A stretch of 64,000 nucleotides of DNA from Schwartzia succinivorans DSM 10502 (GTDB lineage: Bacteria > Bacillota > Negativicutes > Selenomonadales > Selenomonadaceae). Position numbers and translations under genes: made by a program. How positions within the stretch are numbered: the first letter of the stretch is position 1; each line of letters opens with the position of its first letter. Shown here one piece after another: positions 17,356 to 49,842 of this stretch. The stretch is taken from NCBI RefSeq assembly GCF_900129225.1, contig NZ_FQUG01000003.1:124001-188000 (forward strand), in the 5' to 3' direction. A model generated the notes under the pieces. The model was given only the letters and a program-made list of their open reading frames with translations. It was not told where the DNA came from and did no database searches.

Positions 17356-18099
17356 ATGTCAGGACATTCTAAATGGGCAAATATCAAACGTAAAAAGGGC
17401 GCAAACGACGCAATCCGTGGAAAGATTACGACGAAAATCGGCCGTGAGATTACGATTGCAGTTCGTATGGGCGGTCCGGATCCGGTCGGCAACATGCGTC
17501 TGAAGCTGGCTTTGTCCAAAGCAAAGGCAAACAATATTCCTAAGGACAACATTCAGCGTGCCATCAAAAAAGGTCAGGGCGCTGCTGACGGAGCAAATTA
17601 CGAAGAGTTCACATACGAGGGCTATGGTCCGGGCGGTGTCGCAATGCTTTTGGATATCATGACGGATAACCGCAACCGTGCGGCTGCTGATGTGCGCCAT
17701 CTTTTCTCCAAGCATGGCGGAAACCTCGGTGAGACAGGCTGCGTTTCGTGGATGTTCAAGCAGAAGGCTGTTTTCGTAGTCGAGAAGGAAAAATTCGAGG
17801 ACGAGGATGCTCTGATGGATATCGTTCTTGAGGCAGGCGCGGAAGATATGAAGGCAGAGGATGATGTATTTGAAATCACTGCCGAGCCGGGAGATTTCAA
17901 TGCTGTCGAGGCTGCACTTGCTGAAAAGGGTATTGAGACTGCATCCGCTGAAATCACGATGGTACCTGATACGACAGTTCATCTCGAGGGTAAGGACGCG
18001 CAGAAGATGCTCGACCTCATTGACGCATTTGAGGAGTCCGATGATGTTCAGAACGTCTATGCAAACTATGAGATTGATGAGGATTCCCTCGAAGGCTGA
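17356..18099 (+). CDS. YebC/PmpR family protein (TACO1-like)
   Basis: A 247-residue cytoplasmic protein of the YebC/PmpR/TACO1 family. The ATG follows AAAGGAGCGG. Hallmarks are SGHSKWANIKRKKGANDAIR at the N-terminus, GYGPGGVAMLLDIMTDNRNR in the middle and an acidic C-terminus (YEIDEDSLEG). Members have been described as transcription regulators (next to ruvC in many genomes) and, more recently, as factors that relieve ribosome stalling; I cannot tell these roles apart from sequence. It sits before ruvCAB as in many bacteria, but here a terminator and a 270-base repeat array separate them. Confidence 0.93.
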   Translation: MSGHSKWANIKRKKGANDAIRGKITTKIGREITIAVRMGGPDPVGNMRLKLALSKAKANNIPKDNIQRAIKKGQGAADGANYEEFTYEGYGPGGVAMLLDIMTDNRNRAAADVRHLFSKHGGNLGETGCVSWMFKQKAVFVVEKEKFEDEDALMDIVLEAGAEDMKAEDDVFEITAEPGDFNAVEAALAEKGIETASAEITMVPDTTVHLEGKDAQKMLDLIDAFEESDDVQNVYANYEIDEDSLEG

Positions 18100-18112
18100 G
18101 TAAAGCAAAACG

Positions 18113-18136
18113 CACCCGGAGAAATCCGGGTGTTTT
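18113..18136 (+). terminator. Rho-independent terminator after the yebC-like gene
   Basis: CACCCGGA/TCCGGGTG closes a GAAA loop and is followed by TTTTC. Confidence 0.88.
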
Positions 18137-18143
18137 CTTTTAT

Positions 18144-18417
18144 AATGCAGACATAGGAAGTTTTGCCTTTGGCAAAACTTGAATTAATGCGTTATAACTC
18201 GGCGTGCGCCTCGTTGAAATGCCACAGAGGAAAGTTTGTCATGGACAAACTTTGATTAAAGGCATTATAACTCGGCGTGCGCCTCGTTGAAATGCCACAG
18301 AGGAAAGTTTGTCATGGACAAACTTTGATTAAAGGCATTATAACTCGGCATGCGCCTCGTTGAAACGCAGACATAGGAAGTTTTGCCTTTGGCAAAACTT
18401 GAATTAATGCGTTATAA
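18144..18417 (+). repeat. Four-unit palindromic repeat array (A-B-B-A)
   Basis: Four units of 53-54 bases start at 18144, 18218, 18291 and 18364 and are joined by three 20-base linkers (CTCGGC, then G/A, TGCGCCTCGTTGA). Units 1 and 4 (type A) have the inner stem AAGTTTTGCC/GGCAAAACTT. Units 2 and 3 (type B) are identical to each other and have AAAGTTTGTC/GACAAACTTT. Outer stems also match within each unit: AATGCC/GGCATT in B, AACGCA/TGCGTT in unit 4. Each unit ends in TTATAA. The linker itself can fold (GGCG/CGCC). The array fills the 360-base gap between yebC and ruvC. Related single units occur at 27564, 47418 and 49056. Confidence 0.92.
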
Positions 18418-18418
18418 T
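18389..18418 (+). promoter_or_regulatory. Promoter embedded in the last repeat unit, driving ruvC
   Basis: TTGGCA at 18389-18394 lies in the descending arm of the hairpin. TATAAT at 18413-18418 forms the right end of the unit, with 18 bases between. The ruvC start is 41 bases downstream, and no better promoter is visible. Confidence 0.6.
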
Positions 18419-18458
18419 AAACAGAGTATTTGTTCTAAAAGGAGCGGTTGAAAGAAAT

Positions 18459-18953
18459 ATGCTGGTACTTGGAATCGACCCCGGTACGGCTATCTGCGGC
18501 TACGGATTTGTTGAAGCAGCCCAGGGAAGCCGTCTGATTCCGCATGAATATGGAGCTATATTGACGAGCCCTAAAGCACGCATGCAGGACAGACTCATGA
18601 AGCTTTATGATGAGCTTGATGAGCTTATCAAAAAATATAAGCCTGATGCAATGGGTGTTGAACAGCTGTTTTTCAACCGAAATGTTACGACGGCGATACC
18701 TGTCGGGCAGGCGCGTGGAATTGTGCTTTTGGCTGCGGCGAAAAATAACATTGAGCTTGTTGAGCGCACGCCGCTGCAGATTAAGCAGTCAGTTACAGGC
18801 TACGGAAAGGCGACGAAGGAGCAGGTTATTTACATGGTGACGAAGCTTTTGCATCTTCCCGAGCCGCCGAAGCCTGATGATACGGCAGATGCGCTGGCGG
18901 CGGCTATATGCACGCTGCATTGCTTGGACAGTATTCGATGGAGGAACGGTTGA
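18459..18953 (+). CDS. ruvC: Crossover junction endodeoxyribonuclease RuvC
   Basis: A 164-residue Holliday-junction resolvase that cuts junctions prepared by RuvAB. AAAGGAGCGG precedes the ATG. Catalytic acids are visible: Asp7 in LGIDPGT, Glu in MGVEQLFFNRN, and the C-terminal Asp pair in PPKPDDTADALAAAICTLH. The length is normal (about 165). It opens a tightly packed operon that runs through ruvA, ruvB, queH, a spoIID-like gene, queA and on to radC, probably driven by the promoter in the repeat unit just upstream. Confidence 0.96.
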   Translation: MLVLGIDPGTAICGYGFVEAAQGSRLIPHEYGAILTSPKARMQDRLMKLYDELDELIKKYKPDAMGVEQLFFNRNVTTAIPVGQARGIVLLAAAKNNIELVERTPLQIKQSVTGYGKATKEQVIYMVTKLLHLPEPPKPDDTADALAAAICTLHCLDSIRWRNG

Positions 18954-27563: not shown

Positions 27564-27617
27564 TTATAACGCCTTCGTTCCAGTTTTGCCGTAGGCAAAA
27601 CTTCCTCTATCAGCGTT
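27564..27617 (-). repeat. Single palindromic repeat unit, minus orientation (type A-like)
   Basis: On the minus strand it reads AACGC...GAGGAAGTTTTGCC, loop TAC, GGCAAAACTGG...GGCGTTATAAT. It shares the inner GTTTTGCC/GGCAAAAC stem, the outer AACGC/GCGTT pairs and the TATAAT end with the 18144 array, and it is preceded by the linker half CGCCTCGTTGA. Confidence 0.85.
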
Positions 27618-27628
27618 TCAACGAGGCG

Positions 27629-27692
27629 TGAGATATGCTCACCGCCAGTTATTTGTCCCAACCCCCACTTACAGAAGTGGGGGACATCCTTT
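27629..27692 (-). mobile_element. 64-base hairpin element inside the repeat linker
   Basis: In the 18-kb array the linker reads GCCGAG next to GGCG with only three bases between (on this strand). Here those three bases are replaced by 64 bases holding a perfect CCCCCACTT/AAGTGGGGG hairpin with ACAG loop (27662-27683) and a second stem near 27630-27646. This looks like a palindromic end of an IS200/IS605-type or similar small non-autonomous element, but no transposase is present and the assignment is a guess from shape. Confidence 0.45.
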
Positions 27693-27901
27693 GCCGAGTT
27701 ATAAGCGCGCTTTTAGCTGTTGGGATGATTTTGTGTGTGATTGCGATTGCTTGTCTGGCAGTAGGAATACCGGTTGTTGATTTTGTAATTCCAATGGGAG
27801 AACTGTTTTTTATTCCGGCAGTATATTTTATAGCGTTATCGGAAGCATATTTTATGACCAAACTGCTCCAATACGAGGAAGCAGAAAACCAAATTTATTG
27901 A
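27635..27901 (+). CDS. Hypothetical small membrane protein whose start lies inside a repeat
   Basis: An 88-residue reading frame. Residues 1-23 (LTASYLSQPPLTEVGDILC) are translated from the repeat and hairpin element. The rest, from about residue 24, has two membrane helices: ALLAVGMILCVIAIACLAVG and LFFIPAVYFIALSEAYFM. No ribosome site precedes ATG 27635, and GTG 27737 is an internal alternative. The repeat therefore seems to have replaced the original 5' end of the gene. It may be non-functional. No family is recognised. Confidence 0.4.
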   Translation: MLTASYLSQPPLTEVGDILCRVISALLAVGMILCVIAIACLAVGIPVVDFVIPMGELFFIPAVYFIALSEAYFMTKLLQYEEAENQIY

Positions 27902-32591: not shown

Positions 32592-32597
32592 TGTAGA

Positions 32598-32721
32598 TGT
32601 TGCAGGGGAGCCGCGAAGGCGGCTGAGAAGGAATACCTGACTCTTTGAACCTGATCAAGTTTAAGCTTGCGTAGGGAGCAACAGAGGATGGGAGTATGCC
32701 GGCTGCAGAGCCGGTTTTTTT
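32598..32721 (+). promoter_or_regulatory. TPP riboswitch (THI element) with transcription terminator
   Basis: The aptamer runs 32598-32683: closing stem TGTTGC/GCAACA, the pyrimidine-sensing arm with CTGAGA followed by AGGAATACC, and the pyrophosphate arm with CCTGATC and GTAGGGA. The expression platform is a terminator at 32698-32721 (GCCGGCT/AGCCGGT with a run of seven T), 17 bases before the thiM start. Bound TPP is expected to stop transcription of thiM-MTH1187-thiE. Confidence 0.95.
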
Positions 32722-49003: not shown

Positions 49004-49055
49004 GTTATCTGCTTCCTTCATAGTGTTTTCTTCATTGTACAATCATAGGTCATGA

Positions 49056-49109
49056 AACGCAAAGAGGAATGTTTTGCCTATAGCAAAACTTGAACAATTG
49101 CATTATAAT
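49056..49109 (+). repeat. Single palindromic repeat unit with TATAAT end
   Basis: AACGCA...GAGGAATGTTTTGCC, loop, GCAAAACTTGAAC...TGCATTATAATAAACA. It matches unit 4 of the 18144 array over its whole length, including the ATAAACA tail. The TATAAT (49104-49109) lies 18 bases after ATAGCA. The UPF0173 gene starts 55 bases downstream. Confidence 0.88.
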
Positions 49110-49164: not shown

Positions 49165-49842
49165 ATGCTGACGTACACGTATTACGGTCATTCCTGTGTT
49201 TTGCTTGATGACGGAAAATATAAAGTACTTACGGATCCGTTTCTCACGGGTAATCCGAAGGCGGCAATAAAGGCTGAGGACGTCGAATGTGACTATATTC
49301 TTGTGTCTCATGCGCATGCTGATCATCTTGGGGATGCACCGGAAATTGCGGCACGTACCGGAGCAACTATAGTCGCGATTCCTGAGGTAATCGGAGTATG
49401 TCAGGAGAAGGCCGGGAATATAAAGGCTCATGGAATGAATCTTGGCGGCTCCGTTAAGCTCCCTTTTGGCAAGGTTCGCATGACTCTTGCTTTGCACAGC
49501 TCCGGGGTTGCAGGCGGTACAGCTTGCGGCTTTGTTATTCAGATTGGCGGTCAGACTGTTTATTTCGCCGGGGATACTGCTCTGTTCGGTGATATGAAGC
49601 TCATCGGACGTAAGGATTCAATAGATTACGCGCTTCTTCCGATTGGCGATAATTATACGATGGGAATGGAGGATTCTGCCAAGGCCGCGCAGTGGCTTAA
49701 TGCAGTTAATGTCATTCCTATTCATTACAATACATGGCCGGTCATAGAACAGGATGCCGTACAGTATAAGCTCATGACTGAGGAGACGACGCGCGCGACT
49801 GTTCATATCGTTGAGCCGGGGCAGTCAATAGAGCTTAAATGA
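49165..49842 (+). CDS. UPF0173 metal-dependent hydrolase
   Basis: A 225-residue metallo-beta-lactamase-fold protein. ATG 49165 follows AGGGGGC. The zinc motif is VSHAHADHLGDAPEIA, with further ligands in LALHSSG, YFAGDTALFGDM and IPIHYNTWP. The family (YtkL/UPF0173) has no fixed substrate. It overlaps miaA by four bases and opens the operon UPF0173-miaA-hfq-dut-nifS. Its promoter seems to lie in the repeat unit just upstream. Confidence 0.9.
   Translation: MLTYTYYGHSCVLLDDGKYKVLTDPFLTGNPKAAIKAEDVECDYILVSHAHADHLGDAPEIAARTGATIVAIPEVIGVCQEKAGNIKAHGMNLGGSVKLPFGKVRMTLALHSSGVAGGTACGFVIQIGGQTVYFAGDTALFGDMKLIGRKDSIDYALLPIGDNYTMGMEDSAKAAQWLNAVNVIPIHYNTWPVIEQDAVQYKLMTEETTRATVHIVEPGQSIELK

Follow-up and report, generated by a model that had tools for sequence, protein, structure and literature searches.

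Our analysis shows that the palindromic repeat ahead of ruvC in a 64,000-nucleotide stretch of the Schwartzia succinivorans DSM 10502 genome (hereafter the window) belongs to a family of mobile two-hairpin elements. We consider it about 80% probable that these are MITE-like elements with a promoter at their right end, which insert at (T)ATAA(W) and of which the copies feeding a gene have been kept by selection. Judging from sequence signals, about 40 genes of the window genome (G000), including ruvC and a UPF0173 gene, are probably transcribed from element copies, and a sister-species comparison suggests that dozens of ordinary genes, including essential ones, are now driven by copies of the element.

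Inspection of the sequence located the units where they had been predicted, as a tandem of four at 18143–18417, a minus-strand copy at 27564–27618 and a single copy at 49055–49108. The tandem, all on the plus strand, begins with a type A core hairpin that has lost its left domain (unit 1, 18143–18197) and is joined to unit 2 by TATAAC; unit 2 (18194–18270) is a mini-element composed of a short left hairpin, ATAACTCGGCGTGCGCCTCGTTG, and a type B core, and has an ATAA in common with its neighbours. Two further mini-elements follow, one with a type B core (unit 3, 18267–18343) and one with a type A core, which forms the terminal unit (unit 4, 18340–18417). TTATAA had been noted as the common end, with TATAAT at three of four end positions; TATAAT holds for the ends of the three loci, whereas inside the array all three junctions between units are TATAAC. 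Between the intrinsic terminator of yebC (18112–18133, plus strand), which separates ruvC from upstream transcription, and ruvC itself (18459–18953, plus strand) there is nothing but the array and 41 bp. Unit 4 carries a predicted −35-like TTGGCA in its right hairpin arm (18389–18394, plus strand), which together with a predicted −10 TATAAT (18413–18418, plus strand), whose final T comes from the flank and which is kept in the sister species, gives TTGGCA-18-TATAAT with 11 of 12 matches. This is the sole promoter-like site in a scan of 18080–18480.

The second copy said to lie shortly before a gene does so as well: a single core unit (49055–49108, plus strand) ends 56 bp upstream of the gene for a UPF0173 metal-dependent hydrolase (49165–49842, plus strand). 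Its predicted −10, TATAAT (49104–49109, plus strand), is preceded by a weak −35-like ATAGCA (49080–49085, plus strand, predicted; 3/6 matches to TTGACA). Sigma-70 hexamers (−35 and −10 at 16–18 bp) are present upstream of the genes, although at 49.1 kb a simple, strict promoter scan found none. The third locus holds a full-length element (27564–27702, minus strand) with two hairpin domains and ATAA at both ends, whose TATAAT (27568–27563) faces no called gene start; the unit as originally delimited covers only the right half of such a longer element. The window also contains a TPP riboswitch (32594–32694, plus strand).

A covariance-model search recovered 81 clear units at 64 places in the window genome, 52 of which are single copies and the remainder arrays of at most four units; one doubtful place (L096) was omitted from most counts, and totals are given for 63 places. 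The units correspond to right halves of a non-coding, non-autonomous two-hairpin element of 135–165 bp. Type A units are imperfect palindromes of the form AAACGC-loop-AGTTTTGCC-N3-GGCAAAACT-loop-GCGTTATAA, to which type B units (AAATGC...GGCATTATAA) are related. Full-length copies start with (T)ATAACTCGGCAAAAGATGTCCCCCACTTCTGTAAGTGGGGG...CAGGCGGTGAGCATATCTCCCGCCTCGTTG, followed by the core, and fold into two adjoining hairpin domains, D1 (AACGAGGC...GCCTCGTT or variants) and then D2 (AACGC...GCGTT). Terminal inverted repeats are present and short (6–8 bp; (T)ATAACG.../...CGTTATAA), and the element ends in Selenomonadaceae read TATAACKCGG and GCGTTATAA. The right end has the form GGCA-18-TATAA, and the adjoining flank base completes TATAAT. 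The “linkers” between tandem units are D1 left domains with internal deletions, and the ruvC array is thus a tandem of 73-bp mini-elements sharing ATAA.

When 44 copies are aligned, 97.6% of the cells in stems are paired, and compensatory changes were observed at 6 of 14 stem pairs (47 cells compared to 15.5 in shuffles, and also above slid controls). As DNA, the hairpins of the array units fold far better than shuffled sequence (z about −5); the 49.1-kb hairpin does so more weakly (z −2.4). In one subfamily (L253–L256 and L261, from genomes G032 and G052) the two sides of the outer stem have changed in a compensating manner (AAAGGCC...GGCCTTATAA), indicating that the palindrome was kept while the element was mobile. 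Some copies (L099, L102, L105, L106, L192 and L197) contain a second, smaller insert of ∼24 bp, CGAAGCGAAGCTAGTCCTTTAGGG or CGCGACGCGAAGCTAGTGCCATTGGC, in either orientation where D1 meets D2 or within the loop of the D1 hairpin; in L022 and L035 it lies inside the left hairpin loop in opposite orientation. This insert is possibly a nested mobile hairpin.

Within the Selenomonadaceae the element is patchily distributed, being carried by 23 of 61 genomes (13 of 30 genera), with none to 76 copies per genome at the threshold used. Selenomonas sp. AE3005 (G043) harbors about 40 near-identical full-length copies, and one copy is located on the Selenomonas ruminantium plasmid pSRC1. A 30-base block is exactly shared by Selenomonas, Ruminiclostridium hungatei and other Clostridia, where the copies have the Selenomonas architecture with a different inner hairpin and palindrome. 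The patchy counts, the Clostridia matches and the plasmid copy point to mobility and horizontal spread, and the near-identical AE3005 copies and orthologous sites lacking the element likewise speak for mobility; no carriers were found in phage records or IMG/VR.

Copies in the window genome are clearly biased towards gene starts, as called with a purpose-written script. Right ends face a start in 57 of 63 arrays compared to 20 of 59 left ends (Fisher p 4e-11), and 45 of the 63 arrays are located 15–100 bp ahead of a start, in agreement with the original prediction, for which a count of copies ending 30–80 bases ahead of a start codon had been proposed as the test. TATAAT is the end of 49 of the 63 arrays; 47 of these 49 face a start and 40 do so at 15–100 bp, compared to 46 start-facing and 19 end-facing sites, and 29 at 15–100 bp, among 65 ordinary intergenic TATAAT sites. 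Copies flanked by A are placed like ordinary or random TATAAA sites, and promoter-like behaviour appears restricted to copies whose flank gives a T. The predicted promoter cassette is therefore supported in a corrected form, as the right half of a MITE-like element that is probably promoter-like in T-flanked copies only.

The hexamers TTGGCA, TGGACA, ACGGCA and ATAGCA lie 18 bases ahead of TATAA as had been noted, and this spacing is family-wide: at least four of six matches to TTGACA occur at spacer 18 in 41 of the 49 TATAAT copies, and TTGACA-like hexamers are almost absent at spacers 12–17 and 19–22. As the −35 is set by the palindrome, its presence alone is no proof of selection for a promoter. 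Core-only copies, which look older, end in TATAAT in 31 of 35 cases compared to 18 of 28 full-length copies, and the diverged copies L088, L089, L092 and L095 have a broken palindrome and keep TATAAT. In other genera, too, the right ends of terminal units mostly read TATAAT ahead of gene starts. Genes behind copies (NCBIfam names) comprise ylqF, rapZ, ftsH, trmL, uvrB, ahcY, nfo, mraY, deoC, ruvC, putP and UPF0173, as well as those for part of a methionine synthase, a ParA-type ATPase, a Mn-dependent pyrophosphatase and a D-aminoacyl-tRNA deacylase.

The sister genome (G001) is 63% complete; of the 24 loci that could be resolved in it, 17 likewise have a unit ahead of the orthologous gene, e.g., ruvC, UPF0173, ylqF, mraY, nfo, uvrB and a pyrophosphatase gene. 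Units differ at the same gene, with four versus one at ruvC and one versus two at UPF0173 in G000 and G001, respectively, and type A versus type B at ylqF, which upholds the proposed mobility and variability in copy number. Despite changed unit number or type, the −35/−10 right half is kept at constant distance in 16 anchored pairs, and GGCAA at −21 to −17 is 100% identical in 14 of 14 scorable pairs. Identity amounts to 86% in the right arm and 58% in the 5′ arm and loop, compared to 41% in the DNA upstream of the unit. Since these pairs were anchored on TATAAT itself, its conservation in them is partly by construction; unanchored alignments give the same picture. In the orthologues of L038 and L010 the left hairpin arm is gone and GGCA-18-TATAAT is retained. 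Conservation of the right half together with broken palindromes is the pattern expected if the promoter, and not the hairpin, is under selection. At two other loci of the sister genome, the orthologue of L014 (L230) lacks the core and has a TCGGCA-18-TATAAT made of left-domain sequence, as if rebuilt by deletion, and the orthologue of L086 (L182) shows an element-like end near the same site in opposite orientation.

ATAA is present at both ends of 56 full-length copies from two species, with a point change in a few right ends. T precedes the left ATAA in 52 of the 56; the right end is followed by T in 28 copies, by A in 22 and by C or G in the others. Orthologous sites free of the element, in relatives that are there only 75–85% identical, carry one ATAA-like word: CATAAA at L023, GATAAA at L042, TATATT at the counterpart of the AE3005 site L102, and at L029 a native TATAAT with TTGGCA 17 bases ahead; in the region orthologous to L039, TATAAT lies near the site. 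Among T-flanked copies, with those adjoining older units removed, a native −35 is found at 16–18 bp in the left flank in 7 of 22 (3.0 in shuffled flanks; p 0.02) and an extended −10 TG likewise in 7 of 22. The left flanks of A-flanked (TATAAA) copies show neither excess. This excess of native promoter signals suggests that some TATAAT copies inserted into −10 boxes that were already present.

We propose that insertion at (T)ATAA(W) would leave ATAA at both ends, and that the right end would bring a near-complete sigma-70-type promoter, with (T)TGGCA in the right arm of D2, an 18-base spacer and TATAA, to which the flank adds the last T of the −10. When the element enters a −10 box already in place, a promoter for the gene behind would then be rebuilt; copies feeding a gene would be retained by selection, and the rest of the element would decay or change in unit number and type. 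More tentatively, at somewhat less than even odds, an enzyme recognizing TATAAW might preferentially enter Pribnow boxes, with the −10 rebuilt downstream, such that upstream promoter halves could be replaced without silencing and dozens of core genes in several genera could come to share one tunable promoter sequence.

The placement bias of the window genome does not simply reflect where the element inserts, as only 7 of 28 young copies in AE3005 are in promoter position compared to 45 of 63 in the window genome. Many AE3005 copies are placed after a stop codon and ahead of a terminator; among the young copies, 13 are followed by A and 10 by T. Although two different species are compared here, we read the bias of the window genome over AE3005 as selective retention. 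With young copies mostly away from promoters, retention by selection together with insertion into existing −10 boxes would best explain the pattern.

A neutral repeat could also insert at TATAAW, often in −10 boxes, and the rebuilt native promoter would then be used by accident and the element remain unselected. The target consensus and the native promoter signals in left flanks fit this reading, as does the fact that behind a sense TATAAT the right end can face only downstream. However, TATAAT copies exceed the ordinary intergenic rate in promoter position (40/49 vs. 29/65), and right halves are conserved across the sister-species split while the rest decays; moreover, the ends would still be promoters. 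We therefore regard a purely neutral repeat as unlikely. Even less probable is that the palindrome GTTTTGCC-N3-GGCAAAAC is a transcription-factor operator of a dispersed regulon, with the repetition arising from regulation rather than mobility. The palindrome does overlap the −35 in dozens of promoters and is preserved by compensatory changes, but an operator would not account for full-length copies with a conserved left half, tandem arrays, AE3005 copies before terminators, or counts that range between genera from none to dozens; in orthologous promoters the left arm is gone and −35/−10 remain, and the inner palindrome differs in Clostridia. A secondary regulatory role of the palindrome may nevertheless exist.

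In search of the mobilizing enzyme, we considered Y1 and IS110 transposases, neither of which tracks the element. Y1_Tnp matches are missing from the carrier genomes G032, G007, G035, G027 and G059, and AE3005 has only a fragment with a stop; the IS110 DEDD transposase PF02371 is absent from G000, G032, G003, G052, G007 and G035. It is thus very improbable that the repeat is a REP/BIME-like or IS200/IS605-derived (PATE-like) element mobilized by Y1 and devoid of a promoter role: short intergenic palindromes and the Y1 transposases of the window genome would suit such an origin, but the five carriers lack a Y1_Tnp match, and direct ATAA repeats at both ends are atypical of IS200/IS605. That the repeat acts in the 5′ leader as a structured RNA or an attenuator is similarly improbable despite the stable fold and covariation, given no Rfam match in the sequences scanned, few G-U intermediates and hairpin decay in conserved promoters, and since the hairpin lies upstream of the −10 it would be absent from an mRNA started there.

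For the preferred reading of a MITE-like element, the class assignment follows from the lack of a parent: no autonomous element sharing the ends was found in about 1.09 Mb of DNA examined, and AE3005 gave no end-only match pointing to one. No Rfam family matched the element in the sequences scanned, and no description of it was found in open papers. GCGTTATAAC resembles Vibrio repeats, hence an integron attC-like site was considered; it was rejected in view of the dispersed placement of the copies and of a left flank without the G that such a site requires. The G000 assembly breaks at copies of an IS200/IS605-type Y1-transposase element (ends of contigs C2, C3, C7, C9, C10, C14, C19, C20 and others), and a complete copy of it, followed by a TnpB-like gene, is located at C15:377829 (L121).

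Like the bacterial MITEs RUP, ERIC and NEMIS, the element is shorter than 200 bp and non-coding, with inverted-repeat ends and probably short direct repeats, whereas most described MITEs have TA instead of ATAA ends (PMC2229807), and here the parent transposase was not found. Intergenic palindromes, arrays and high copy numbers are shared with REP/BIME/REPIN sequences, in contrast to the head-to-tail orientation of the arrays, the 135–165 bp full-length form, the missing Y1 link and the promoter at one end. Circular IS intermediates, as in IS911 and IS110, form junction promoters. Similarly, a copy's −35 and the junction TATAAC combine in the arrays into a promoter-like sequence that reads into the next copy; in contrast to those IS, the element has no transposase gene, and its occurrence is not matched by that of IS110 transposases.

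The window genome is an old, settled genome in which ftsH, mraY, uvrB, rapZ, ylqF and ruvC are among the genes with likely promoters from the element. These promoters can be traced across a species split along with changes in their units, and provide a natural series of mobile DNA becoming regulatory DNA. They also call for caution in promoter prediction in Negativicutes.

By analogy, the nearest known case is the Neisseria Correia element, which forms promoters in two ways: in the Black promoter the end of the element contributes the −35 and part of the −10, completed by the flank, and in the Snyder promoter a native −35 is combined with a −10 located in the element's first bases (PMC2649163); the present element would work like both, and shares no sequence with Correia. 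Both are short and non-autonomous with palindromic ends (Correia elements span 70–160 bp, in over 100 copies), and occupy positions conserved between strains or relatives, with some mobile differences. Membership in the Correia (CREE) family was rejected, as the ends are not of the TATAG[CT]GGATTAA type and the host is not Neisseria. Further differences are the two hairpins, ATAA instead of TA ends, a directional promoter confined to one end, mini-elements lined up head to tail in arrays, and a host range of Negativicutes and Clostridia. Genes downstream of copies here include uvrB and mraY of the cell-wall cluster (L027 and L084), and in Neisseria, too, Correia promoters precede uvrB and a dcw gene, which is probably coincidence. 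Promoter-bearing repeats were thus already known in Neisseria, where they are a minority of copies, with 18 potential Black promoters listed for FA1090, whereas here most copies (49/63 ending in TATAAT) are likely gene promoters.
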